Shown: piece after piece, positions 1-30,667 of the stretch
Layout of the letters: each line of letters starts with the position of its first letter
Numbering within the stretch: the first letter of the stretch is position 1
DNA from: a bacterium
Lineage (GTDB): Bacteria; Blakebacterota; Blakebacteria; Blakebacterales; Blakebacteraceae
Assembly (NCBI GenBank): GCA_025774615.1
Contig: JALGVQ010000087.1
Span: forward strand, 1 to 30,667
Reading direction: 5' to 3'
DNA length: 30,667 nucleotides
Position numbers and translations under genes: made by a program
The notes under the pieces: model-generated
What the model was told of the DNA's origin: nothing
Databases searched by the model: none
What the model saw: only the letters and a program-made list of their open reading frames with translations

Positions 1-1
1 A

Positions 2-1435
2 GCAGTTGAAGATACGCTCTGGCACTTCGGTGACGCGATGACCCAGGTCACGCTCGAGCCGGTGGCCTATTCCGCGACTGACGATGAGCTTGATGGCGCC
101 CGGCGGTACGGCTACTTCCCGATCGGTAATGCCGGATTCGGTAATGACGGTTCCGACCGCTACTACTCGAACGACTATCAGATCACGCGCACCATCAAGG
201 CCGACGTCACCAGCCAGGTGACCACGCATCACCAGATGAAGACGGGCGTGCAGTACAACGTCCCGACGATGGACACCTATGACGTGCAGCTGCTCTATCT
301 GAATCCTCCCTACATCACGCAGTACCGTCGTACTCCGTGGGAGATGGGTCTCTACCTCCAGGACAAGATCGAGTATGACTTCATCATCCTGAACCTGGGT
401 ATTCGCTACGATGCGGCCAATGCCGGTGAGATCCCTTTCTGGATCGATCCGTGGAATCCGACGAGCCCCATAGATGGCACGGTCATCCCTGACCCCACCA
501 ATCCGGAGACCGCGCCGATCAAAACAGGTGAGCTGCGCAGTCAGTTCTCGCCGCGCGTGGGTGTCTCGCACCCGGTCACCGAACGTTCGGTCATCTACTT
601 CAACTACGGCCACTTCTTCCAGAACCCCATCTACCGGAACATGTATCTGCAGGGGACCCTGGAGGACGCCGTACCGTTGCGTACCGTTGATCGGCAACCC
701 GAACATGGAGAACGAGAAGACGGTTTCGTACGAGTTCGGTTACAAGCACCAGTTCACCGAGATCCACGCGCTCGAACTGACCCTGTGGGCAAGGGACACG
801 TCCAACATGGTCGGTTCGATCCGTGTTCCTGCGTTTCTGGGGGGACTGAACAATCCGTACGATTACACCGTGTTCCTCAACTACGACTACTCGTCATCGA
901 AGGGTGTCGACCTGTCGCTGATCAAGCGGTACAGCGACTACTGGAGTGCCCGGGTGAACTACTCGTACATGACGACACAGTCGAATCGTGCCCCCGGGTG
1001 CTCGGTTGGGACCAGCCGCACAGACTCAGCTCATCGTTCAGCATCAGTATCCCGCAGGGTGTGGGTCCGCACGTTTTGGGTATCCGTCCCTTCGAGCGGA
1101 TGAACGCGAGCCTGATCTACACGGCCGCGGCGGGTAAGCCGTACACACCGACCACCAAGGAGAAGAGACTCGAGCCGAACTCCGGTCGTCGTCCATGGAC
1201 GTTCTCGTGGTCAGCGAAGCTCTACCGCGACTTCGAGTCGTTCGGACTGCGTTACAGCATCTTTGCTGACGTCCGGAACCTCTTCAATCGGAAGAATGTG
1301 CGTTCGGTGTACACCCGCACAGGCAGTGCTGATGACCCCGGTCCCGGGGCAACCAGCTACAGCGAGAACTACGACCGGTGGCACTACTATGAGAGGCCGC
1401 GGTCGATCGATGTGGGTATCCGCATCTTCTTCTAG
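2..1435 (+). CDS. TonB-dependent receptor copy 1, 5'-partial, with an internal out-of-frame segment
   Basis: C-terminal part of an outer-membrane TonB-dependent receptor beta-barrel; the 5' end lies left of the window. It aligns almost residue for residue with the second copy at 1929-4963 (for example 'YYSNDYQITRT', 'QLLYLNPPYITQYRR', 'WEMGLYLQDKIEYD') and ends in 'GIRIFF', an aromatic C-terminus typical of outer-membrane barrels. The reading frame is continuous to the stop, but positions 690-989 encode homologous sequence only in the next frame. A 10-bp tandem duplication at 670-689 shifts the frame, and a 55-bp deletion after 989 (relative to 4463-4517 of copy 2) restores it. The encoded protein would therefore carry about 100 unrelated residues inside the barrel. 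The substrate is unknown; the family imports siderophores, glycans or peptides. The family call is secure. Whether the product is functional is doubtful. Confidence 0.85.
   Translation, partial: AVEDTLWHFGDAMTQVTLEPVAYSATDDELDGARRYGYFPIGNAGFGNDGSDRYYSNDYQITRTIKADVTSQVTTHHQMKTGVQYNVPTMDTYDVQLLYLNPPYITQYRRTPWEMGLYLQDKIEYDFIILNLGIRYDAANAGEIPFWIDPWNPTSPIDGTVIPDPTNPETAPIKTGELRSQFSPRVGVSHPVTERSVIYFNYGHFFQNPIYRNMYLQGTLEDAVPLRTVDRQPEHGEREDGFVRVRLQAPVHRDPRARTDPVGKGHVQHGRFDPCSCVSGGTEQSVRLHRVPQLRLLVIEGCRPVADQAVQRLLECPGELLVHDDTVESCPRVLGWDQPHRLSSSFSISIPQGVGPHVLGIRPFERMNASLIYTAAAGKPYTPTTKEKRLEPNSGRRPWTFSWSAKLYRDFESFGLRYSIFADVRNLFNRKNVRSVYTRTGSADDPGPGATSYSENYDRWHYYERPRSIDVGIRIFF
670..689 (+). repeat. 10-bp tandem duplication causing a frameshift
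   Basis: The 10-mer cgtaccgttg occurs twice head to tail (670-679 and 680-689). The second receptor copy has it once at the matching place, just before 'LIGNPNMENEK'. The extra 10 bp shift the reading frame by one. Confidence 0.9.
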
Positions 1436-1443
1436 AATTTTCG

Positions 1444-1480
1444 GGAGGAAGCATTTGGAAGAAGCATCGGAAGAAGCATT
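1444..1480 (+). repeat. Short tandem array downstream of receptor copy 1
   Basis: Three imperfect 12-13-bp units of the form ggaRgaagcatY lie directly after the receptor stop codon (1444-1456, 1457-1468, 1469-1480). The equivalent region after the second receptor copy has no such array. Function unknown. Confidence 0.6.
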
Positions 1481-1508
1481 CGATAGTGTTCAGCTGGAAA
1501 GCAGTAAT

Positions 1509-1532
1509 GGAGGGGGGCAATTGCCCCCCTCC
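1509..1532. terminator. Perfect 12-bp inverted repeat, probable terminator of receptor copy 1
   Basis: ggaggggggcaa (1509-1520) is followed at once by its exact reverse complement (1521-1532). In RNA this would fold as a very GC-rich stem with a tight loop. No clear T-tract follows, so intrinsic termination is plausible rather than certain. It lies 75 bp after the receptor stop. Confidence 0.55.
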
Positions 1533-1552
1533 TTAGTATAAGATTAAAAAAA

Positions 1553-1610
1553 GTGCCTGTTCAGGTAGGAAAAAATTTTCCGCCCTGGAGGAAGAACAGG
1601 CACGATTTTA
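1553..1610. terminator. Compound hairpin between the receptor copies, possible bidirectional terminator
   Basis: gtgcctgttc (1553-1562) and gaacaggcac (1594-1603) form a perfect 10-bp stem. A run of A lies on the left and 'gatttta' on the right, giving U-rich tails in both directions. The 31-nt loop holds a smaller inverted repeat, ggaaaa/ttttcc (1568-1581). It could be a bidirectional terminator or a small structured or palindromic element. No such element follows the second receptor copy. Confidence 0.5.
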
Positions 1611-1827
1611 CCGTGTCATATTAACACAACCCGTCATGTGATTGATTTCGTACAGGAGTGCTGTGATAGCATCCCTGAAACTGATTCGGACGCCAAAATG
1701 GTCCAGGTATTTCATAACAGCAAGTGTATCAATGTGATAAAGCGTCCGCTGTGCTCAATTCCGGGATGAATAATACGATCGGTGCGAATTTCGGGATATG
1801 TTGTGAAATCGTTACGATATCACTGAA
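1611..1827. other. Intergenic stretch without a recognised gene
   Basis: This part of the 493-bp gap between the receptor copies holds no convincing coding sequence. A 70-codon ORF at 1724 has no recognisable features and a composition unlike its neighbours. A small inverted repeat atcg-tta-cgat lies at 1808-1818. The stretch is more AT-rich than the genes around it, as expected of a regulatory upstream region. Confidence 0.5.
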
Positions 1828-1845
1828 CTGGCACAGGGATTGCAT
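1828..1845 (+). promoter_or_regulatory. Sigma-54 (-24/-12) promoter candidate for receptor copy 2
   Basis: TGGCAC at 1829-1834, five bases, then TTGCA at 1840-1844. The invariant GG and GC dinucleotides are exactly ten bases apart, and a pyrimidine precedes the first T, as in the consensus YTGGCACG-N4-TTGCW. One consensus base differs (G to A after TGGCAC). It is on the coding strand about 85 bp before the start codon, giving a predicted transcript start near 1855. It implies control by an RpoN-dependent enhancer-binding protein; none is encoded in the window. Confidence 0.6.
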
Positions 1846-1914
1846 CTATTTCTGGGCCGTAAGCACCCCGCCGTACAGATCGTTCTCCGGCGGGTTAGGC
1901 ATACCATGCGTTTC

Positions 1915-1936
1915 GGGAGGTTTACCCTATGGGTAA
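1915..1936 (+). promoter_or_regulatory. Shine-Dalgarno and start-codon hairpin of receptor copy 2
   Basis: A strong ribosome binding site, gggagg (about 1915-1920), lies 8 bases before the ATG at 1929. The start codon lies in a 6-bp inverted repeat ttaccc-tat-gggtaa (1922-1936), so a small hairpin could cover the initiation codon. The site settles the start. A regulatory role for the hairpin is speculative. Confidence 0.5.
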
Positions 1937-4430
1937 GCGAATGATGGGAGCCTTCACAGTCTTGGTGGCGCTCGCTGCTCTGACGTCCACTGCGTGGGCA
2001 CAGGGCACAACGGGTACCATCCGCGGTAAGGTCACCGACGCGACTACAGGGGATCCGCTTGCAGCGGTGAACGTGTTCGTGCTGGAGACCGATGGAACCG
2101 CGACCACCATGGGGCAGTTTACCAATGCCGACGGTGACTACGTTATCATCAACGTACCACCAGGCATGTATATGCTCCGCGCTACCATGGTCGGTTACAA
2201 GACTACGGAGGTTGAAGATCTGCTGGTAACGGTAGGTGTTTCGACAAGCCAGCCGTTCCAGCTCGAACCGACGGTCCTCGATGTAGGTGAGGTCGTCACG
2301 GTGATGCATCAGCGCGAGATGATCCAGCGCGACGTTTCCGCGACACAGCAGAGTTATTCCATCGAAGAGATGGAGAGGATGGCTGTCTCCTCAACTCAGG
2401 AGATCCTCCAGCTGCAGACCAACACCCTGACGATGACCGACAACTTCAACGACGATATCCCCGGGTATTACGACCGAGGCCTCGAGCAGGTGCACATGCG
2501 GGGTGGTCGTAACGCCGAGGTGGCGTTCATGATCGACGGCATGCAGGTGACCAACCTGGTCTTCGGTGGGCAGGCGGCACAGGTAAGCCCCGAGATGGTG
2601 GTCATGGCCGGTGGTATGAGCGCTGAGTTCGGGAACGCGATGAGTGGTGTCGTTAACATGGTCACCCGTGAGGGTGGTCGTCAGCTCGACGCCAACATCG
2701 AAGTCCTTTCCTCGGAGTTCTCCGGGCAGCAGCAGGACGATATCCGTGACCTGACACGGTTCCAGGGCTACATCGGTGGTCCGGTGCCACTGCTCAGCAA
2801 GATGAGCTTCTTCCTGTCGGGTTCGTTGAGCGGTTCGCGTGACTACACCATCAAGAAGGATGACATCGTATACGACCTGGATGTCGATCCGATGGATGAG
2901 ACCACGCGCAATCCGGATATCGACTACTACGACATGCCTGACGACTGGGCGGATTTCGACTTCGCAGAAGACAACCCCTACTTACAGCGTGAAGGTGCCA
3001 CCGGTTACGACTGGCGTATCTACCCGGCAGACATCTACGCGGGCTACCTGGGATTCGGGTTCAACAACAACTGGTCGGGTATGGGCAACCTTACCTACAA
3101 GCTGACGCCGAGCATGAAGATCACGCTTTCGGCGAACCTGAACGGCCAGGACCGCGTTCCCTACACGAGTGCCTGGCGTTTTTCGATGTTCTGGGGCATT
3201 CCAAAGGAATTCCAGGACAACGCTGTCTGGGGTACCGAGCGATGGAACGCCGACCCGAAGTACGCGACTGATCCGAACTACGTGGGAGATGAAAACCAGA
3301 GCCTTCAGACCATCTCGAGCACGGGTCTGACCGACTTCCACAACGAGAAGAACCGGGTGGACATGAAGAACCAGCGTCTGGCATTCGTCTGGACACACCA
3401 GCTGGGCCAGTCCACCTTCTACAGCATCCGCGGTTCCTACTATGACTACAACCGCGCGATGCGTGTAGACCGGTTCATCAACGAGGATGGCTGGGTGGCG
3501 CGTTTCGAGCACCTCTATCCGAGCGGCACTTCAGACACGCTCTGGCAGTTCGGTGACGCGATGACCCAGGTCACCCTTGAGCCGATTCCCTATTCCGCAT
3601 CTGACGACGCGGATGATGGCGGCCGGCGGTACGGCTACTTCCCGATCGGTGGTGCCGGATTCGGTAATGACGGTTCCGACCGTTACTACTCGAACGACTA
3701 CCAGATCACGCGTACCCTCAAGGCCGACGTAACCAGCCAGGTGACCACGCACCACCAGGTGAAGACGGGCGTGCAGTACAACGTCCCGACGATGGACACC
3801 TATGACGTGCAGCTGCTCTACCTGAGCCCTCCCTACATCACGCAGTACCGTCGTACTCCGTGGGAGATGGGTCTCTACCTCCAGGACAAGATCGAGTATG
3901 ACTTCATCATCCTGAACCTGGGTATTCGTTACGATGCGGCGAACGCCGGTGAGATCCCCTTCTGGATCGACCCGCGGAACCCGATCGACGCGCTTGGTGA
4001 ACTGGTCATCGACCCCTCCGACCCGGAGACCGCACCTGTCAAGACCGGTGAACTGCGCAGCCAGTTCTCACCGCGTATTGGCGTTTCGCACCCGGTCACC
4101 GAACGTTCGGTTGTCTACTTCAACTACGGTCACTTCTACCAGAACCCGATATACCGTAACCTGTATGTCCAGGGGACGCTGGAAGACTCCGTACCGTTGA
4201 TCGGCAACCCGAACATGGAGAACGAGAAGACGGTTTCGTACGAGTTCGGTTACAAGCACCAGTTCACCGAGATCTATGCTCTCGAGATGACCATGTGGGC
4301 AAGGGACACGTCCAACATGGTCGGCTCAGAGCGGATCCCGGCGTTCTTCCAGGGTGTCTCGAACCCGTACGACTACACGGTGTTTCTCAACTACGACTAC
4401 TCGTCATCGAAGGGTGGAGTGCCCGGGTGA
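1929..4430 (+). CDS. TonB-dependent receptor copy 2, frameshifted before the last barrel strands
   Basis: Outer-membrane TonB-dependent receptor. Residues 1-25 are a signal peptide ending 'STAWAQ'. About 27-115 is a carboxypeptidase-regulatory-like Ig domain ('TIRGKVTDATTGDPLAAVNV', 'NVPPGMYMLRATMVGYKT'). About 135-250 is the plug ('VHMRGGRNAEVAFMIDG', 'MSAEFGNAMSGVVNMVT'). The rest is beta-barrel. The ORF stops after 833 residues because 37 bp present in copy 1 (907-943) are missing between 4416 and 4417. The remaining barrel continues in another frame to 4963, and the repaired product would be 1,023 residues. Without the last strands and C-terminal Phe, outer-membrane assembly should fail. 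The start is fixed by gggagg 8 bases upstream. No TonB box was identified. The substrate is unknown. Assembly error is an alternative to a real lesion. Confidence 0.88.
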   Translation: MGKRMMGAFTVLVALAALTSTAWAQGTTGTIRGKVTDATTGDPLAAVNVFVLETDGTATTMGQFTNADGDYVIINVPPGMYMLRATMVGYKTTEVEDLLVTVGVSTSQPFQLEPTVLDVGEVVTVMHQREMIQRDVSATQQSYSIEEMERMAVSSTQEILQLQTNTLTMTDNFNDDIPGYYDRGLEQVHMRGGRNAEVAFMIDGMQVTNLVFGGQAAQVSPEMVVMAGGMSAEFGNAMSGVVNMVTREGGRQLDANIEVLSSEFSGQQQDDIRDLTRFQGYIGGPVPLLSKMSFFLSGSLSGSRDYTIKKDDIVYDLDVDPMDETTRNPDIDYYDMPDDWADFDFAEDNPYLQREGATGYDWRIYPADIYAGYLGFGFNNNWSGMGNLTYKLTPSMKITLSANLNGQDRVPYTSAWRFSMFWGIPKEFQDNAVWGTERWNADPKYATDPNYVGDENQSLQTISSTGLTDFHNEKNRVDMKNQRLAFVWTHQLGQSTFYSIRGSYYDYNRAMRVDRFINEDGWVARFEHLYPSGTSDTLWQFGDAMTQVTLEPIPYSASDDADDGGRRYGYFPIGGAGFGNDGSDRYYSNDYQITRTLKADVTSQVTTHHQVKTGVQYNVPTMDTYDVQLLYLSPPYITQYRRTPWEMGLYLQDKIEYDFIILNLGIRYDAANAGEIPFWIDPRNPIDALGELVIDPSDPETAPVKTGELRSQFSPRIGVSHPVTERSVVYFNYGHFYQNPIYRNLYVQGTLEDSVPLIGNPNMENEKTVSYEFGYKHQFTEIYALEMTMWARDTSNMVGSERIPAFFQGVSNPYDYTVFLNYDYSSSKGGVPG

Positions 4431-4963
4431 ACTACTCGTACATGACGACGCAGTCGAACCGGGACGACCCGTGGGCCGGTTACCGCGGTGGCGACGAGCT
4501 TGACACCAGCCCGAAGCGCCCCCGGGTGCTCGGTTGGGACCAGCCGCACCGTCTCAGCTCAACGTTCAGCATCAGCATCCCGCAGGGTGTGGGTCCGGAG
4601 GTATTCGGTATCCGTCCCTTCGAGCGGATGAACGCGAGCCTGATCTACACAGCCGCGGCAGGTAAGCCGTACACACCGACCACCAAAGAGAAGAGACTCG
4701 AGCCGAACTCCGGTCGTCGTCCATGGACGTTCTCGTGGTCAGCGAAGCTCTACCGTGACTTCGAGTCGTTCGGACTGCGTTACAGCATCTTTGCTGACGT
4801 CCGGAACCTCTTCAACAAGAAGAACGTGCGTTCTGTGTACTCGCGTACCGGTAAAGCCGACGACCCGGGTCCCGGCGCTACCAGCTACAGCGAGAGCTAC
4901 GACCGGTGGCACTACTATTCGAGGCCGCGGTCGATCGATATCGGGATCCGCATCTTCTTCTAG
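4415..4963 (+). pseudogene. C-terminal fragment of TonB-dependent receptor copy 2 (shifted frame)
   Basis: This 182-codon open stretch continues the barrel after the 37-bp deletion, starting at 'WSARVNYSYMTTQSNR'. It holds the 18-residue stretch around 'DDPWAGYRGGDELDTSPK' that copy 1 has lost, then matches copy 1 almost exactly to the shared 'IGIRIFF' end. It has no start signal of its own. An upstream ATG in this frame at 4295 reads only antihomologous sequence before 4415. It is best read as the detached 3' end of the gene at 1929. Confidence 0.8.
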
Positions 4964-5034
4964 GATTTTCGAGAGAAAACAGTAGAGAGAGCAGATATGG
5001 GATTACTTCCGAATACGCATGGATCAGGGCAACG

Positions 5035-5056
5035 GGGGGCTGCACTGGCAGCCCCC
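5035..5056 (+). terminator. Hairpin after receptor copy 2, possible terminator or attenuator
   Basis: gggggctgc (5035-5043), a 4-nt loop, then gcagccccc (5048-5056): a perfect 9-bp GC-rich stem between the receptor stop and the next start. No T-tract follows, so it may only reduce read-through into the gene at 5168. Confidence 0.45.
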
Positions 5057-5167
5057 TGGAGTCCGCCTGGCCTGAATCAGGATTGGATACATGCAGAACA
5101 TCGGGGAATCCTGTTTCCCGACATTGAACACAACGCATTTCGGAACGTGAGTGAAGGAGCGGACACT

Positions 5168-8100
5168 ATGGATTATCCACGCTTGCTGAAAATGCTGCGC
5201 TGGCCAGTGGCTTTTCTGCTGCTGACATGCATGGCATCTGCGAGCTGGGCACAGGATCAGTCTTCATGGGCTGAGGAACGCGCGAAGTTGAAGATGACCC
5301 TTGAGGATATGGGGCCTGAAGCACTTTCGCGTGATGCGGCTGCAACAGATCGCGCCGTGGCCCCGATGAATCTTGCCCAACTCCAGATTTACACCTACAA
5401 CATGGGAATACAGCTCGGCCGCATTTTTTCAGCCGGCCGGGGAACGTACCCCAACCCTGACGGTACCCTGCGTGCCTACTGGTTCACATCGAGCGTTGCG
5501 TTCGCTGTGGAAGGTGGCCCGTGGCATCCGACAGGTATGGCCCACGAGACTTCAGACTTCCACAGCCTTTCCAAGATGGACTGGGAAGCGAAGGATGGTG
5601 CTCGTGGAATCCAGTTCTCGAACCCACCACAGCTTACCGGCTCCTACCCCATATACGCGATAAGCGACCTTCCCTTAACCTGGCCGACGTCCGGCTGGCC
5701 GGCACCGACAGTAAACGAGGTGTGGGCCGGGACCGACACCTGGAACAAGTGGGAACTGGTTGGTGACCGGAACTCGTACTGTATCTTCGACGATAAGTAC
5801 GCCGACCGGGAGGGAGATGGTCAGTCAATCTCCCTGGGTATCGAGGTAAAGAAGCGGGCCATCTCCTATGGCGCGATGAACATCGTCTTCATCCAGTACG
5901 AGTTCACCAACACATCGAGCAACAACTACACCGGTGTGTACGTCGGACACGTTGCTGACAAGGGAAGCCCGTCTACTGATGACTGGACAGGCGCATCGCT
6001 CGAGTACGTCGAAGCCGACCAGATGATCTACTCGAAGGCGTCGAACTTCGATGCAGCGACAGGCACACATGCCCGTACTAATGGTGAACAGCTCGGCTTC
6101 GTCGGCCAGATGGTGATGGAAAGCCCCACGGGCAGTTTCCGTGAGGACAACTACGACCCGAACAACCCGGGTGCCAACATCGTCACTACTTCGGCCAATC
6201 CGATGCCGTTGGAAGACGCCACCATGACGTTCGGACCGGCCAACATCCTGACCCGTGTAGCTCTGCTTGACTGGGACGACCGGGTGCTCATCGATGAAGA
6301 AAGCCTCTACGGCGCTTTTTCAGGTGATATCCTGGTGATGGAGTCAGGTTACGCCGAAAACGTCTGGAAGACTGGACTGAGTGGGGACGGATCACCGATC
6401 CTCAAGCAGGACAGCGACGACTACAAGGCGTACAACAGCAACTGGGACAGTTCAACCGACCACTTCTACTACACCGCTTCGGGACCGTTCTCGATGGCCG
6501 CAGGCGCGAGCTTCGATTTCGTGGTGGCGTTCGTGGGTGGTCTGACACTCCAGCAAATGGAGGCTTCGGCTGTTCTGGCCAAGCACACGTACAACATCCA
6601 GTTCGCGGGTCCAGCTGCCCCGCCGGCGCCGGTATCGTTCACAGCGAACGGTATCCTGGCTGGTCCGGGTGGAAGAGAATACGACCCGCGGCTCCACGCC
6701 TACCCGATCCACTACGCCCCGTCAGGTGACATCACCCTGACCTGGGACCTGAGTAAATCGGTCATTGCCTATGATCCGTCTTCGGGCATTCAGGACTTCG
6801 AGGGGATCAGAATCTACCGATCGATGGATCGCGGCGCCCACTGGGGTGAGGTGATCTCCGATGCTCAGGGTGCATTCGCTGAGTGGATGCCTGTCAGGCA
6901 GTGGGACCTCGATGACGGGGTCAAGGGTAATGACGGTCTCAGTCGCCACTGGCTCGGTGACGACACGGGCCTGGAATCGACCTGGACCGATCCTGACATG
7001 ATGGATGGTGTCGAATACTGGTATGTCATCACCGCATATGACAAGGGTGAGTTCGACGCGGTCACGTTTTTCCAGACACTACGGTCACTTGAGTCACCGA
7101 AGGGAAGCAGTCCTAATTCCCCGAACGTGCTCGCGGTGATCGCAGGATCACGGCCTGCCGGATACACCGAAGGCACCATGACAGTCGGTACGACGACAGG
7201 CTCGGCGATCACACTGCTGGAGGCTTCTTCGAACGCCTGGGAGGCCAACTCCATCTCTGCCATCGTGCTCAATGAGACCGCGCTGACCGGTGACTCCTAC
7301 AAACTCGACGTGACGGGTTTCTATGTTGAACCCGACACCGAGGTTGCGGATGGGGACACGGTCAGCCTGCCCGGTTTCATGCTTAAGAACACGACGACCG
7401 GCACGGACTTCTTCCCCGAGCCCATCCTTGGCAGCGATCCGTCTCTCGGCCTGGACAATGTACCGGTCACCGAGGGATTCAGGATCTTCACATCCCAGGT
7501 GCACGGTGGTAACGGTGGTGTGTACAATTTCGAGCAGACAACCGATGCTGATCCCGACTCGGAGTACACGGTGGCCTTCACCCAGGCGTACATGGCGGGC
7601 GCAGGTGCCGCTGCCAACCGCGCCAACGTCACCAAGTACATGAACATGGTGGAGCTCCGCTTCACCGGGTTCGTGACCGCGGCTGGTGACTCCAACTACG
7701 GTGTTTACGGTTCTGCCGGAAGCTACAGTGGTGGGAGAACCCACATACCGTTCGAGGTGTGGGACATCGAAACCGATACACGTCTGATGCCGATGCACTA
7801 CCGGTTCTACAACACCGGTGCTCCATACGGTGACGCATACTGGATATCAGACGAGTATTTCATGATCATGGACATCCCCTACTTCGAGGCGGATGGGGTG
7901 ACGGTGACCGACGTACAGGACATCCATCCAGTGGCTGACTCTGATTACTGGGGTTACAACACCGGCAGTCTGCTAAGTCGCGCGGATTGGTCCTACCGGA
8001 TAGCCTTCAACGAGGCCGATTTTGCGGACCCGACGGACATCAGCGGTGCGCTCTGGTCGGTTGGAGATGTCTGGACGTTTACTCCATGGATGACCATGAT

Positions 8101-8395
8101 GAAGAATGAAGTCGGATCGAGTTTCACCTTCACTACGACCCGGACTTCCATCACCGATTCACTGGTCACGTTGGATGACATCATGGTCGTACCGAACCCG
8201 TACTACATTTACGCCGAATGGGACATGAGCGTTAACCGGCGTAAGATCCAGTTCACCAATGTTCCGATGAACAGCGAGATTCAGATCAGATCTACACGCT
8301 GTCAGGAGAACTCGTGGCGATCCTTGATAACCATGGTGACGCCACGGCTGTCGCGGGTGGGAAGCTGTACAACTCCAACCGCGTCGGCACGGTAG
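5168..8395 (+). CDS. Large exported protein, probable type IX-type cargo, frameshifted at the sorting tail
   Basis: The first 29 residues from the ATG at 5168 are a signal peptide ('LKMLRWPVAFLLLTCMASAS', then 'WAQ'). The start is chosen because 'gaaggag' lies about 10 bases upstream; a longer in-frame extension from 4997 runs through the hairpin at 5035 and lacks a ribosome site. The body is beta-rich and secreted-looking, with a fibronectin/Ig-like region near residues 475-660 ('DFEGIRIYRS', 'WYVITAYDKGEFD'). Near the end, 'VVPNPYY' opens a typical C-terminal sorting-type domain. At 8283-8292 a 5-bp tandem duplication shifts the frame, so the ORF ends 35 codons later without the tail. The repaired protein would be 1,111 residues ending 'KVGKFAIIR'. 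It lies between the receptors and the PorV-like gene, which fits an export role. The molecular function is unknown. Confidence 0.85.
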   Translation: MDYPRLLKMLRWPVAFLLLTCMASASWAQDQSSWAEERAKLKMTLEDMGPEALSRDAAATDRAVAPMNLAQLQIYTYNMGIQLGRIFSAGRGTYPNPDGTLRAYWFTSSVAFAVEGGPWHPTGMAHETSDFHSLSKMDWEAKDGARGIQFSNPPQLTGSYPIYAISDLPLTWPTSGWPAPTVNEVWAGTDTWNKWELVGDRNSYCIFDDKYADREGDGQSISLGIEVKKRAISYGAMNIVFIQYEFTNTSSNNYTGVYVGHVADKGSPSTDDWTGASLEYVEADQMIYSKASNFDAATGTHARTNGEQLGFVGQMVMESPTGSFREDNYDPNNPGANIVTTSANPMPLEDATMTFGPANILTRVALLDWDDRVLIDEESLYGAFSGDILVMESGYAENVWKTGLSGDGSPILKQDSDDYKAYNSNWDSSTDHFYYTASGPFSMAAGASFDFVVAFVGGLTLQQMEASAVLAKHTYNIQFAGPAAPPAPVSFTANGILAGPGGREYDPRLHAYPIHYAPSGDITLTWDLSKSVIAYDPSSGIQDFEGIRIYRSMDRGAHWGEVISDAQGAFAEWMPVRQWDLDDGVKGNDGLSRHWLGDDTGLESTWTDPDMMDGVEYWYVITAYDKGEFDAVTFFQTLRSLESPKGSSPNSPNVLAVIAGSRPAGYTEGTMTVGTTTGSAITLLEASSNAWEANSISAIVLNETALTGDSYKLDVTGFYVEPDTEVADGDTVSLPGFMLKNTTTGTDFFPEPILGSDPSLGLDNVPVTEGFRIFTSQVHGGNGGVYNFEQTTDADPDSEYTVAFTQAYMAGAGAAANRANVTKYMNMVELRFTGFVTAAGDSNYGVYGSAGSYSGGRTHIPFEVWDIETDTRLMPMHYRFYNTGAPYGDAYWISDEYFMIMDIPYFEADGVTVTDVQDIHPVADSDYWGYNTGSLLSRADWSYRIAFNEADFADPTDISGALWSVGDVWTFTPWMTMMKNEVGSSFTFTTTRTSITDSLVTLDDIMVVPNPYYIYAEWDMSVNRRKIQFTNVPMNSEIQIRSTRCQENSWRSLITMVTPRLSRVGSCTTPTASAR
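8283..8292 (+). repeat. 5-bp tandem duplication that breaks the sorting domain
   Basis: agatc is repeated head to tail (8283-8287, 8288-8292). Removing one copy gives the uninterrupted reading 'SEIQIYTLSGELVAILDN', the expected core of a C-terminal sorting domain. Confidence 0.85.
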
Positions 8396-8508
8396 ACTGG
8401 AATATCTGGACGTACGAGTTTACCGAGGCTGCCTACGGACTTTACGTCTACGTCGTGAAGACGGACGACGGGAAGACCAAGGTAGGCAAGTTTGCGATCA
8501 TCAGGTAG
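8293..8508 (+). pseudogene. Detached C-terminal sorting (Por_Secre_tail/FlgD-Ig-like) domain
   Basis: This frame encodes 'YTLSGELVAILDNHGD', then 'WIWTYEF'-like and 'YGLYVYVVKTDDGKTKVGKF' segments, ending 'AIIR'. The pattern (I-Y-T-L-S-G-E-L-V, then A-Y-G-L-Y-V-Y-V-V, then K-x-G-K-F-x-I-I-R) is characteristic of type IX or FlgD-like C-terminal domains. It belongs to the protein starting at 5168 and is separated only by the 5-bp duplication. An internal ATG at 8314 has no convincing ribosome site. Confidence 0.75.
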
Positions 8509-15577: not shown

Positions 15578-16294
15578 ATGCGTTCATACTTTTCCAAGTC
15601 TGCAAATGGCGTCAAAACTCTGCTTTCCTTCAGCGTAATCACCAGCGTGATCATCCTGCTCGCCAGCTGCGGCGGCGGATACTCCACCAGGCTTACGGAC
15701 CCGGTCAGTGATGACGCGATCCTGATCATCGGTTCAAGCACGATCGAAGTTATTCGCGGTATGCGGCCGCAAGACTACAATGCCGGTATGCAGGAAGCCT
15801 ACACCGCCGGCCAGGAGATCTCGATCATGGCCGACCAGGAGGTGGATGGTGAATACGTCAGGAAGGCCATCACCATCTGGGCGGATGATGAAGGTTACTT
15901 CTGCGTGGAGAACCTGCCGCAGGGACGGTATACACTCAAGGGCGTGAGGATCACCGGCAGTCAGGGAGGTGATTACACGATCTGGAATGAGCTGCGTATG
16001 CCGAACGAACGGTGGATGGCGCAGGGTTCGAGCTTCCGGTACTCGTTCACGGGTGAATACTTCCAGTACAGCCCGCGTCTCAATGTGTACAACTTCCAGC
16101 ACAGCATCTTCTCCCTGACGGGAGCGGGTACGGTCGTGTATTACCGAATGGCGAAGATGGAGAATGAAAAGTTCGAGCTGGCGACGACCTACACCAGGGA
16201 TTACGTCGAGAATTACTTCATCGAAAAGTATCCCGACAGCGGGTGGATCCCGATCCTCCAGACGCTGGTGCCGGTCGGCGATCAGGATCACTGA
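15578..16294 (+). CDS. Lipoprotein of unknown function
   Basis: 238 residues with a lipoprotein signal peptide: hydrophobic segment 15-28, then 'LLASC' with Cys31 as the likely lipidated residue, followed by GGG. There is no Asp at +2, so outer-membrane sorting is possible. Residues about 75-135 resemble a small beta-sandwich or carboxypeptidase-regulatory-like fold ('YFCVENLPQGRYTLKGVRI'). The rest is unassigned ('FRYSFTGEYFQYSPRLNVY'). It is divergent from the TPR-GWxTD gene and could share regulation with it. A strong terminator follows, so it is probably monocistronic. No family recognised. Confidence 0.75.
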   Translation: MRSYFSKSANGVKTLLSFSVITSVIILLASCGGGYSTRLTDPVSDDAILIIGSSTIEVIRGMRPQDYNAGMQEAYTAGQEISIMADQEVDGEYVRKAITIWADDEGYFCVENLPQGRYTLKGVRITGSQGGDYTIWNELRMPNERWMAQGSSFRYSFTGEYFQYSPRLNVYNFQHSIFSLTGAGTVVYYRMAKMENEKFELATTYTRDYVENYFIEKYPDSGWIPILQTLVPVGDQDH

Positions 16295-16408: not shown

Positions 16409-16445
16409 CATATTGAGATCGTGTGGATGGTTTGAGACCGTATTG

Positions 16446-19139
16446 ATGTCATCTGAATCAAGAATATCCAGCCGATGGTTTTTGACCGCTCCCGGAGGGC
16501 CGGCACTTCTTACCGGTGCCATCGGGACGCTTCTCTATCTGATCAGGCTCACTCCCGGTACCGGGTGGTATGATGCTCCGGAGTTCGTCGGCGTGGCGTC
16601 GACCCTCGGGATCGCGCATCCGACCGGATATCCTCTTTACAGTCTCGTGGGTCGACTCTTCTCATCCCTGCTGGGATGGATCGCCGAACCGGCGCTGATC
16701 GTCAATGCACTCTCCGCTGTGGCTGCCGGCGCGACACTCGCGGTGATGACCCTCGTCACCTGGCAGTTGATCCGCCTGCTTCGTCTCGGTCCTCTCCCGC
16801 GCACATTCAGGGTTGTGAGCTCGGTCATACCGGCCGCGGTCCTTGGCAGCATGACACTCTTCATGGAGCAGGCGGTTGTGGCGGAGGTCTATACCCTCCA
16901 CACGTTCATGGTCGGTCTGCTGCTGCTTCTGGGACTTCATCTGGTCCTCGATGCCGAGAAGCCGCTTCCGATCCTCGAAGCGGGCGAACTGCGCAGCATG
17001 GGCGTTGCTGTCTGGGGGACTGCCGGCTGGAGGAGACCACTCCTGATAGCGTTCCTTGCCGGTGTGGGGCTCGGGAACCATTTCACGCTGGTGCTCTACT
17101 TCCCGGCCCTTCTCCTGCTCTTCTGGTGGGCACTGCGCCCTGAATCCGACACACTGCCTGTTATCGAGACGGCATCAACGAGCAGGCAGGTTGTGAGTTT
17201 CCTCATTCCGGTCTCGCTCCTCTTCCTGCTGGGATTGAGCATCTATCTGATCGTCCCGCTCCGCGCGTCGCTCAATCCTCCCTTCAACTGGGGAGAAGCG
17301 GTCACCCTGCGCAGGTTGATGAGACTGGTGACGGCGGCTGAGGCACGCGCCAGACCGTCACAGTTCATGCCGGTTACCGCCTGGGGTATCTGGTTCGATA
17401 TAGCCCGGGGAATGAGCCTGCCGATCTTCGCCCTCTCGATCATGGGTTGGATCTGGGCGGGGATCCGCCGTATCCGGCTTGGACTCCTGGCACTGCTCTA
17501 TCTCCTGTTCCCACTGCTTTTCCTGCTGGCGGGACTCGACATCCTGGAGGATGCGCTCCTCCCGGTCCACCTCTGGATGGCTCTCGGTACCGGCATGACG
17601 GCAGTGCTGGTGGGGGAGCGGTTGATCGCCATCCTCGGTCCCCGTCCGGGAGCCAGGTTCGCCTTCGCCGGAATCGCGCTGCTGCTCGCCGTGGGCCCGG
17701 TGCTGCAGATCGCGCGCAACTGGCACGAGGTGTCCGCCACGGGAGCAGGAGGGCCGGCCGTCTACGCAGACGCGGTCGCCGCTTCGGTGTACGGTGGACC
17801 GGCGCCCACAGAACCAGTCGAGGGGATCGTATTCAGCGAGGAGAACACTACCGCCTTCCTCCTCTGGCATCGAAGACGCCTGGAACAGAAGGACCCGGGG
17901 CTCTCCGGGGTGTATCTGCTGCTTGTGCGGGAGGAGTGGTATCGGGAGGAACTCCTCCGCATGATACCCTCCCTGAAGGTCCCATCACTCGATCGCGGAT
18001 ACGAACAGCTGCCTCATGAAGCGGCGTCACGCGAACTGATAGCCCTCAATACCGATTCGACCGAACCCCTCTTCCTGAGCCCGATCATCCTGCCTCCTGA
18101 ACATGTCTATGGAACACTGGTTCCTCATGGTGTGCTTCTGCGCATGGAGCCGCCGGGATACGTGCCCGATCTGGAGGATGTGCGACGACACGTATCGATC
18201 ATGTCCGAGTATGCGCCGGCCTTTACCGAGGGTCAGCTCCCCCGTATGGACAGGATGACGCGCGACTGGTGGAGCTGGCGTCACAGCCTGATGGGTGAGG
18301 CCTGGCTCCGTCTCGGATTGCTTCCTGCGGCTGAGGCCGAGTTCAGAGCCGGGGTACGAGTCAATTCCACAAGGCCCGAACCATGGATGGATCTCGCGCT
18401 CTTCTTCTCCGCGGTCGGAGACTGGAAGGGGATGGAGGCAACGCTGAGGGAAGCGCTGGCCCTCCGCCCACGCGATCAGGGACTTCTGATCGAACTGGCA
18501 CAGGCGCTCATCCATCAGGGAGCGTACGATGAAGCAGAGCGTGTACTGCCGACCGGCAGGATCCGGCACGTACCCCGGGAACAATATCTGAGGGTTCGCG
18601 CGAGTATCTCTCTGGGACAGGGTGATGTGAACGCTGCGCGGAACGATCTGGAAGAAGCCGTCAGGCTGGCGCCTGAATCTCCAGAGATATGGAATGATCT
18701 GGGGGTGGTCTACCTCCAGAAGGGCCAGTGGGACGATGCGGTACCGGCCCTCACCCGTGCAGTCGAACTCCAGCCGAACCTCGGTGAGGCGTGGGCGAAT
18801 CTGGGCATGATCGCGTTCCAGGACGCGATCTGGGAGGAAGCGGAGGAGAATCTGGAGCGCGCTCGTCAGGCCGGAGTCTCCGATCCACAGGTCGGGTTCA
18901 ACCTCGGATCGGCGCGGGTGAATCTCGGCGATTTTTCGGGCGCGGAGGAAGCGTTCCGGTCCAATCTCCGGGAATGGCCCCTTCACGCGGATTCCTATAT
19001 AGCCCTGGCCGCGCTCCTTGAGCGTGATGGTCGTCTGCAGGAGGCGCTCCTCATCCTGGAGAGCGGCCGTATGGCGGTGCCCGACGATACCCGTTTCGGA
19101 TTGATCCTGCGCCGACTGCGTTTACCGCCACTTCTATAA
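16446..19139 (+). CDS. DUF2723 GT-C-like membrane protein with C-terminal TPR domain
   Basis: 897 residues from the ATG at 16446; no good ribosome site precedes it, and a TTG at 16413 is a weaker alternative. The N-terminal DUF2723 signature, 'GWYDAPEFVGVASTLGIAHP' then 'TGYPLYSLVG' (about 40-69), is followed by eight to ten membrane segments up to about residue 430. This fold is related to GT-C protein O-mannosyltransferases. A soluble region follows, and residues about 610-897 are TPR repeats ('EIWNDLGVVYLQKGQWDDAV', 'EAWANLGMIAFQDAIWEEAE', 'LGDFSGAEEAFRSNL'). The family is implicated in transfer of lipid-linked sugars to proteins, but substrates are not established. The usual acidic position in the first loop is kept (WYDAPE). 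It probably sits in the inner membrane with TPRs on one face. Confidence 0.85.
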   Translation: MSSESRISSRWFLTAPGGPALLTGAIGTLLYLIRLTPGTGWYDAPEFVGVASTLGIAHPTGYPLYSLVGRLFSSLLGWIAEPALIVNALSAVAAGATLAVMTLVTWQLIRLLRLGPLPRTFRVVSSVIPAAVLGSMTLFMEQAVVAEVYTLHTFMVGLLLLLGLHLVLDAEKPLPILEAGELRSMGVAVWGTAGWRRPLLIAFLAGVGLGNHFTLVLYFPALLLLFWWALRPESDTLPVIETASTSRQVVSFLIPVSLLFLLGLSIYLIVPLRASLNPPFNWGEAVTLRRLMRLVTAAEARARPSQFMPVTAWGIWFDIARGMSLPIFALSIMGWIWAGIRRIRLGLLALLYLLFPLLFLLAGLDILEDALLPVHLWMALGTGMTAVLVGERLIAILGPRPGARFAFAGIALLLAVGPVLQIARNWHEVSATGAGGPAVYADAVAASVYGGPAPTEPVEGIVFSEENTTAFLLWHRRRLEQKDPGLSGVYLLLVREEWYREELLRMIPSLKVPSLDRGYEQLPHEAASRELIALNTDSTEPLFLSPIILPPEHVYGTLVPHGVLLRMEPPGYVPDLEDVRRHVSIMSEYAPAFTEGQLPRMDRMTRDWWSWRHSLMGEAWLRLGLLPAAEAEFRAGVRVNSTRPEPWMDLALFFSAVGDWKGMEATLREALALRPRDQGLLIELAQALIHQGAYDEAERVLPTGRIRHVPREQYLRVRASISLGQGDVNAARNDLEEAVRLAPESPEIWNDLGVVYLQKGQWDDAVPALTRAVELQPNLGEAWANLGMIAFQDAIWEEAEENLERARQAGVSDPQVGFNLGSARVNLGDFSGAEEAFRSNLREWPLHADSYIALAALLERDGRLQEALLILESGRMAVPDDTRFGLILRRLRLPPLL

Positions 19140-19603: not shown

Positions 19604-19733
19604 GGGATGCAGAGGCGTACCGGATATATCCTCATTCCCGTACTGCTGGCCCTCTCAGCGTGCGGCAGGGGATGCAGAGGCGTACCGGATATATCCTCAT
19701 TCCCGTACTGCTGGCCCTCTCAGCGTGCGGCAG
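19604..19733 (+). repeat. 65-bp exact tandem duplication at the start of the isoaspartate methyltransferase gene
   Basis: Two head-to-tail identical units (19604-19668, 19669-19733) cover the start codon and the whole lipoprotein signal peptide. Because 65 is not a multiple of three, initiation at the first ATG (19607, with ggagg upstream) reads into a frame that stops at 19906. The second ATG (19672) reads the enzyme. Confidence 0.95.
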
Positions 19734-29363: not shown

Positions 29364-30329
29364 TTACCGAATATGATCAAGGACGTTCATGGCTTTCCAG
29401 CGCAGGCCTGGATGGTTTTTGATACTGTCCTTCATTGCGCTGTCACCGGTCAGGAGTTCAGGCACTATCTCTCCGTGATCGTTCAGCCGAGAGATGAATT
29501 CATATTCGGCTGATTCCAGCGGTAACAGCTCTGAGAGGAGGCCTCGACAGCTACTCACGAGCTCTTCTACCCACGTGTCCAGTACCTCTCGTCCAGGCAC
29601 ATGATCACTCCGAAGCATGGGCAGGAGCTGACGTTCAACCTCGCTCCTGTCAGTTTTTACATCCTCAACCGAGATCTCCCGCCAGTCTTTTCTGACGATG
29701 CCGCCATAGATCACGAAGGACAGCCTCAATTTTTTCCGATCAATCGCCCCCTTCTGCAGGAGCTCTCTCACATCAAAGAGATCCCGGCTGGCACTGCGGG
29801 TGAGCATCGCGGCGAGTTTTCCAGCCACCAGTTCATGAAGGTCAAGAACCAGTATCTGTGTCGCCTGCAGGGGACCGATCGGTCTTGAATCTATAATGGA
29901 TGGTGTCCAGAGCGGGGTTCGGAACATGTAGTTTACATCCAGTTCCAGGATTCCAGGTTGTCCGGCGGCTCCCGTGAACCCAAAACGCCATTTTCCTCCA
30001 GCGTGTTCGGTTGGTACATGTCTCACTGCCAGGTTCAGACGTCCGCCAACAGCCTGGACAGCCTGTTCGATCTTCGGACGCTCCTCAACCAGCGCCTCAC
30101 GCGACGCCTTTCCCAGATAATTCACGTCGATATCGACCGAAAGCCGGGGAACATCGAATATGAAGAGATTGAGTGCCGTACCACCCTTCAGGGCCATGCG
30201 CTTTTTCAGAAAGGGATGACGGTTGACGGCCTCCAGCAGTTCCAGGAGCCAGATTGTCTTTTCAAGAGCATATGGTTGAAAACCGAGATTGGATGCCAGA
30301 CTCAGAAGATCAGCGTATTGCAGGATCAC
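29364..30329 (-). CDS. abiEii: AbiEii-type nucleotidyltransferase toxin (type IV toxin-antitoxin)
   Basis: 321 residues from a GTG at 30329-30327 that overlaps the antitoxin stop as GTGA, with ggaggaggag just upstream, so translation is coupled. A longer reading from 30386 would overlap the antitoxin by 61 bp and is rejected. The nucleotidyltransferase core is 'KGGTALN' (48-54) and 'RLSVDIDVN' (62-70), giving the G-G-T and D-x-D motifs of the DUF1814/AbiEii family. These toxins modify tRNA or other targets and are countered by a DNA-binding AbiEi antitoxin. The system can give abortive infection against phage. Confidence 0.87.
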   Translation of the reverse strand: MILQYADLLSLASNLGFQPYALEKTIWLLELLEAVNRHPFLKKRMALKGGTALNLFIFDVPRLSVDIDVNYLGKASREALVEERPKIEQAVQAVGGRLNLAVRHVPTEHAGGKWRFGFTGAAGQPGILELDVNYMFRTPLWTPSIIDSRPIGPLQATQILVLDLHELVAGKLAAMLTRSASRDLFDVRELLQKGAIDRKKLRLSFVIYGGIVRKDWREISVEDVKTDRSEVERQLLPMLRSDHVPGREVLDTWVEELVSSCRGLLSELLPLESAEYEFISRLNDHGEIVPELLTGDSAMKDSIKNHPGLRWKAMNVLDHIR

Positions 30330-30667
30330 GCGGACTCCTCCTCCCAGGAACGGGTGAGGATCCAGTCGGGTACGATGAGATTCCATGAAGAGATCAGTTT
30401 ACCAGGCTCCCTTCTGTCTCGCTGCAAGTAGCGTGGCTGGGAGGGCTTGTGTTGTTGCAGCATTTCCAGGTGGTGGTCTTCCACCATCAGCTGATCCCGG
30501 TGCTGTTCGAGGAAGAACCCGACTCGTGCCACGGTGAGAGCGGATCGCAGCGAACATGTGTAATCGATAACGGTCTCGAGATCGAAAAATTCCACCATTT
30601 CCAGGGAACGCCAGATTTCCTCCCATCCTCCGCCATGGTGTGGAGCATGCATCACATCAACCATTGT
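30326..30667 (-). CDS. abiEi: AbiEi-family antitoxin, C-terminal part (truncated by the window)
   Basis: The last 113 codons of the gene upstream of the toxin; the 5' end lies beyond the right edge. 'HAPHHGGGWEEIWRSLEMVE' and 'VARVGFFLEQH' resemble the C-terminal domain of AbiEi antitoxins. The N-terminal winged-helix domain expected for autoregulation would be outside the window. Assignment relies on both the sequence pattern and the coupled AbiEii gene. Confidence 0.75.
   Translation of the reverse strand, partial: TMVDVMHAPHHGGGWEEIWRSLEMVEFFDLETVIDYTCSLRSALTVARVGFFLEQHRDQLMVEDHHLEMLQQHKPSQPRYLQRDRREPGKLISSWNLIVPDWILTRSWEEESA

Follow-up and report, generated by a model that had tools for sequence, protein, structure and literature searches.

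Three small indels that disrupt two tandem TonB-dependent receptor genes are most likely local assembly errors in sister receptor paralogues, at junctions that would be expected to lack read support; from the sequence comparisons described below, we put the probability of this reading at about 0.85. The evidence points to an ordinary finding, i.e., short-read errors in a fragmented metagenome genome, and not to a genetic switch. The genes lie at the start of the window, by which we mean the whole 30,667-nt stretch that was analysed. This stretch is contig C117 of a metagenome-assembled genome (MAG) that comprises 3.3 Mb in 324 contigs and is 82%-complete.

Copy 1, on the forward strand at 2–1435, is the 3′ half of a TonB-dependent receptor gene, as judged from its ORF, its β-barrel domain (TonB_dep_Rec_b-barrel, PF00593) and its match to contig C86 of the same MAG. 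The start of C117 falls inside the gene, the 5′ half of which is on C86. Copy 2 (1929–4963, forward strand) is a full-length receptor gene, identified from its ORF, domains and tblastn; it is frameshifted after position 4414, with a stop at 4430 and the end of the ancestral frame at 4963. Its assignment as a TonB-dependent receptor is firm, as the PF07715 plug and the PF00593 β-barrel both score above cut-offs, and CarboxypepD_reg is also present. A related receptor, copy 3, is found in the same genome on contig C164, the end of which cuts the gene so that only its 3′ third is included.

Next on the 3′ side of copy 2 come a large gene that has no Pfam match, a gene whose PorV match is weak and below cut-off, and GWxTD-domain genes. 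Contig C56 of G001, a MAG of the same genus, shares its gene order with window positions 2766–23606, from the receptor through the GWxTD, TPR, TMEM260-like, thioredoxin and PCMT genes. G001:C56 has about 3 kb of extra DNA between the orthologues of 15578–16294 and 16413–19139. Near the far end of the window, an AbiEii-type nucleotidyltransferase gene (PF08843) occupies 29364–30386 on the reverse strand. An ORF upstream of this gene, at 30326–30667 on the same strand, overlaps it and runs off the contig end; it may encode the antitoxin partner of the nucleotidyltransferase.

The indels were defined by pairwise alignment of window positions 1–1500 with positions 3481–5060. The sequence-only reading of the window had called the two copies near-identical, which is apt for exact common blocks of 61–101 bp but somewhat strong for the copies as a whole, the overall identity being patchy and about 86%. 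The same reading had described three indels, and the alignment bears out each of them, as follows. Copy 1 has a private 10-bp exact tandem duplication at 670–689 (forward strand), consisting of two units of CGTACCGTTG, which TRF also reports as a perfect 2 x 10 bp repeat. An 85-bp block that is identical in copy 2 has the duplication at its left edge. A 10-bp unit taken alone is within chance genome-wide, and its status as an insertion comes from the comparison of sister copies. A 37-bp segment at 907–943 of copy 1 is absent from copy 2, where the junction lies at 4414–4416 with a 2-bp microhomology, TG. A 55-bp segment at 4463–4517 of copy 2 is absent from copy 1, where the junction lies at 987–990, with the gap placed after 987. 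Placement of the indels is ambiguous by 1–2 bp, and microhomology at the two deletion junctions amounts to just 1–2 bp in the alignment. All three indels are private, and none is a multiple of three.

The relatives of the two copies show what the family state is at each of these sites. Copy 3 has both the 37-bp and the 55-bp segments and is without the duplication. The same is true of the syntenic gene in G001:C56, which supplies the related-genome comparison that the earlier reading had proposed. In the coding region, copy 2 differs in length from copy 3 only by the 37-bp gap, and copy 1 has, relative to copy 3, the +10 and −55 changes plus a single in-frame +3. It had been claimed that each copy retains what the other has lost. 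The indels are indeed as described; however, copy 3 has both segments, so the reciprocity is not exclusive and is not needed. The pattern, as read from the alignments, is that each copy departs from the family consensus, and reciprocity is not a special feature of it.

The two changes in copy 1, +10 and −55, give a net −45 bp, and the ORF at 2–1435 therefore remains open, with about 103 codons read out of frame. Truncation is confined to copy 2. Elsewhere in copy 2, an out-of-frame stretch of 309 nt is open in 0 of 727 windows per shift. Over the segment that copy 1 reads out of frame, copy 2 and genome G002 are likewise open in that shifted frame. Thus, openness is a property of the local sequence, and the idea that selection keeps the shifted frame of copy 1 open was rejected.

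Substitution patterns bear on the age of the lesions. Downstream of the breaks, in the ancestral frame, dN/dS is 0.17–0.18 for copies 1 and 2 and 0.08–0.10 in comparisons with copy 3. These values are no higher than those upstream for the same pairs, 0.21–0.28. Relaxed selection downstream of the lesions, as expected of old pseudogenes, was sought and is not seen at dN/dS values of 0.08–0.18. Coding constraint still holds or held until very recently. It follows that the lesions either arose very recently or are false, and that old pseudogenes are unlikely.

Assembly from short reads has left a signature at the start of the window. Positions 1–114 match the end of contig C86 exactly, as a terminal overlap, and 114 bp is k − 1 for k = 115. 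A contig end that lies in repeated sequence and shares an exact k − 1 overlap is a sign of de Bruijn graph assembly, and the C117/C86 pair displays both. No k − 1 overlap is found at four other ends, namely C117 right, C86 right, C155 left and C164 right, and thus the k = 115 signature depends on one overlap. The sister MAG, G001, matches Meg22_46_Bin_213 of the Guaymas "Meg" series. The Guaymas "Meg" metagenomes were assembled by IDBA-UD with --mink 65 --maxk 115 --step 10 (PMC9258230), and IDBA-UD assembly is also given in PMC9727166. From the length of the overlap and the kinship of the two MAGs, we infer that the window's MAG was produced by that IDBA-UD pipeline too. The exact blocks of 61–101 bp common to copies 1 and 2 are within or near the k range of 65–115.

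Similar lesions are found elsewhere in the window and in the sister MAG. A 5-bp tandem duplication, CAGAT x 2, at 8282–8291 (forward strand) causes a frameshift close to the 3′ end of the gene that follows copy 2 (4997–8507) and is not in the G001 orthologue. A 65-bp exact tandem duplication at 19604–19733 (forward strand), at the start of the PCMT gene (pcm), is single-copy in the G001 orthologue; it is probably an assembly error of the kind proposed for the receptors. In G001, the C56 receptor has private deletions of 22 and 59 bp, the C483 receptor has private deletions of 115 and 16 bp (lengths relative to a divergent homologue), and a single-copy TPR/GWxTD gene has a frame break. Near-identical sister copies of the broken G001 receptors were sought within G001 and none was found, so confusion of paralogues is not the sole cause of the lesions there; the remainder would have to come from strain variation or low coverage.

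Tandem duplications were also surveyed in sampled DNA stretches. Because the survey counts include real triplet repeats, only the non-triplet count was used. Non-triplet exact tandem duplications with a unit of at least 10 bp number 6 in about 382 kb of the two MAGs and 0 in about 371 kb of other genomes; the support from this excess is modest. The receptor on G001:C7, for its part, has a private and exact 28-bp tandem duplication (L057:1484–1540) where the gene changes frame.

We suggest that the sister TonB-dependent receptor genes are intact and that local errors arose when they were assembled from short reads. An overlap of 10 bp left untrimmed would have been turned into the tandem duplication of copy 1, and two wrong joins would have cost copy 1 its 55 bp and copy 2 its 37 bp. 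That an assembler confused paralogues had already been raised in the sequence-only reading as another source of the pattern, and it becomes the favoured one in view of the private indels, the k − 1 overlap at the contig end and the lesions elsewhere.

A second explanation is that the breakage is real and very recent, independent small deletions and duplications having broken redundant receptors through replication slippage or end joining and serving no switching function. The indels do stand in the deposited contig, paralogous receptors may be redundant, a low dN/dS is compatible with very recent breakage, and 1–2 bp of microhomology at the deletion junctions fits end joining. However, this explanation requires many independent, recent and private events across two MAGs. 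Moreover, genes other than receptors are affected (the gene after copy 2, pcm and the G001 TPR gene), whereas long open frames persist in the more divergent receptors of the same MAG. We therefore regard real loss of function as unlikely.

A third explanation is that the tandem receptor copies swap stretches of sequence through homologous recombination or gene conversion, so that reversible frame-breaking lesions toggle receptors between broken and intact forms; were the lesions real, they would point to receptor switching in a lineage that is uncultivated. RecA-dependent exchange could act on tandem direct copies that have exact blocks of up to 101 bp, and the patchy identity of copies 1 and 2 is in keeping with it, but the proposal, made in the sequence-only reading as the rebuilding or switching of receptors, gains no positive support and is very improbable: copy 3 is already complete at both segments, the junctions have 1–2 bp of microhomology, the lesions are different from copy to copy and from genome to genome, non-receptor genes are hit too, no donor cassette is present among the receptor contigs compared, and the features of phase variation that were sought, a site-specific recombinase and inverted repeats, are absent among the ten window proteins scanned and, for repeats of at least 40 bp, from the window.

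The known system closest to such a switch is that of the Bacteroides outer-membrane proteins, which are phase-variable and switched by DNA inversion (PMC4747536). As in that system, the genes considered here encode outer-membrane surface proteins and are arranged in tandem or as repeats. Unlike that system, the present locus shows no recombinase among the proteins scanned and no inverted repeats at the length searched, and its lesions are private to each copy and not at shared recombination sites.

For our preferred reading, local assembly error, the closest parallel is provided by Chen et al. 2020 (PMC7111523), who describe local assembly errors in IDBA-UD metagenome assemblies. Their case of a duplicated overlap has Ns at the join, whereas there are none in the case considered here. 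If the lesions are errors, the predicted proteins, i.e., copy 2 cut at 4430 and copy 1 with its approximately 103 out-of-frame residues, would become false database variants. Caution is warranted with short-read MAGs, in which what look like reciprocal pseudogenes in tandem paralogues can be errors of assembly. In other respects, the errors of Chen et al. (PMC7111523) and the lesions described here are alike: both are short and local, both include joins that leave an overlapping flank duplicated, and in both the contigs end in non-unique sequence.
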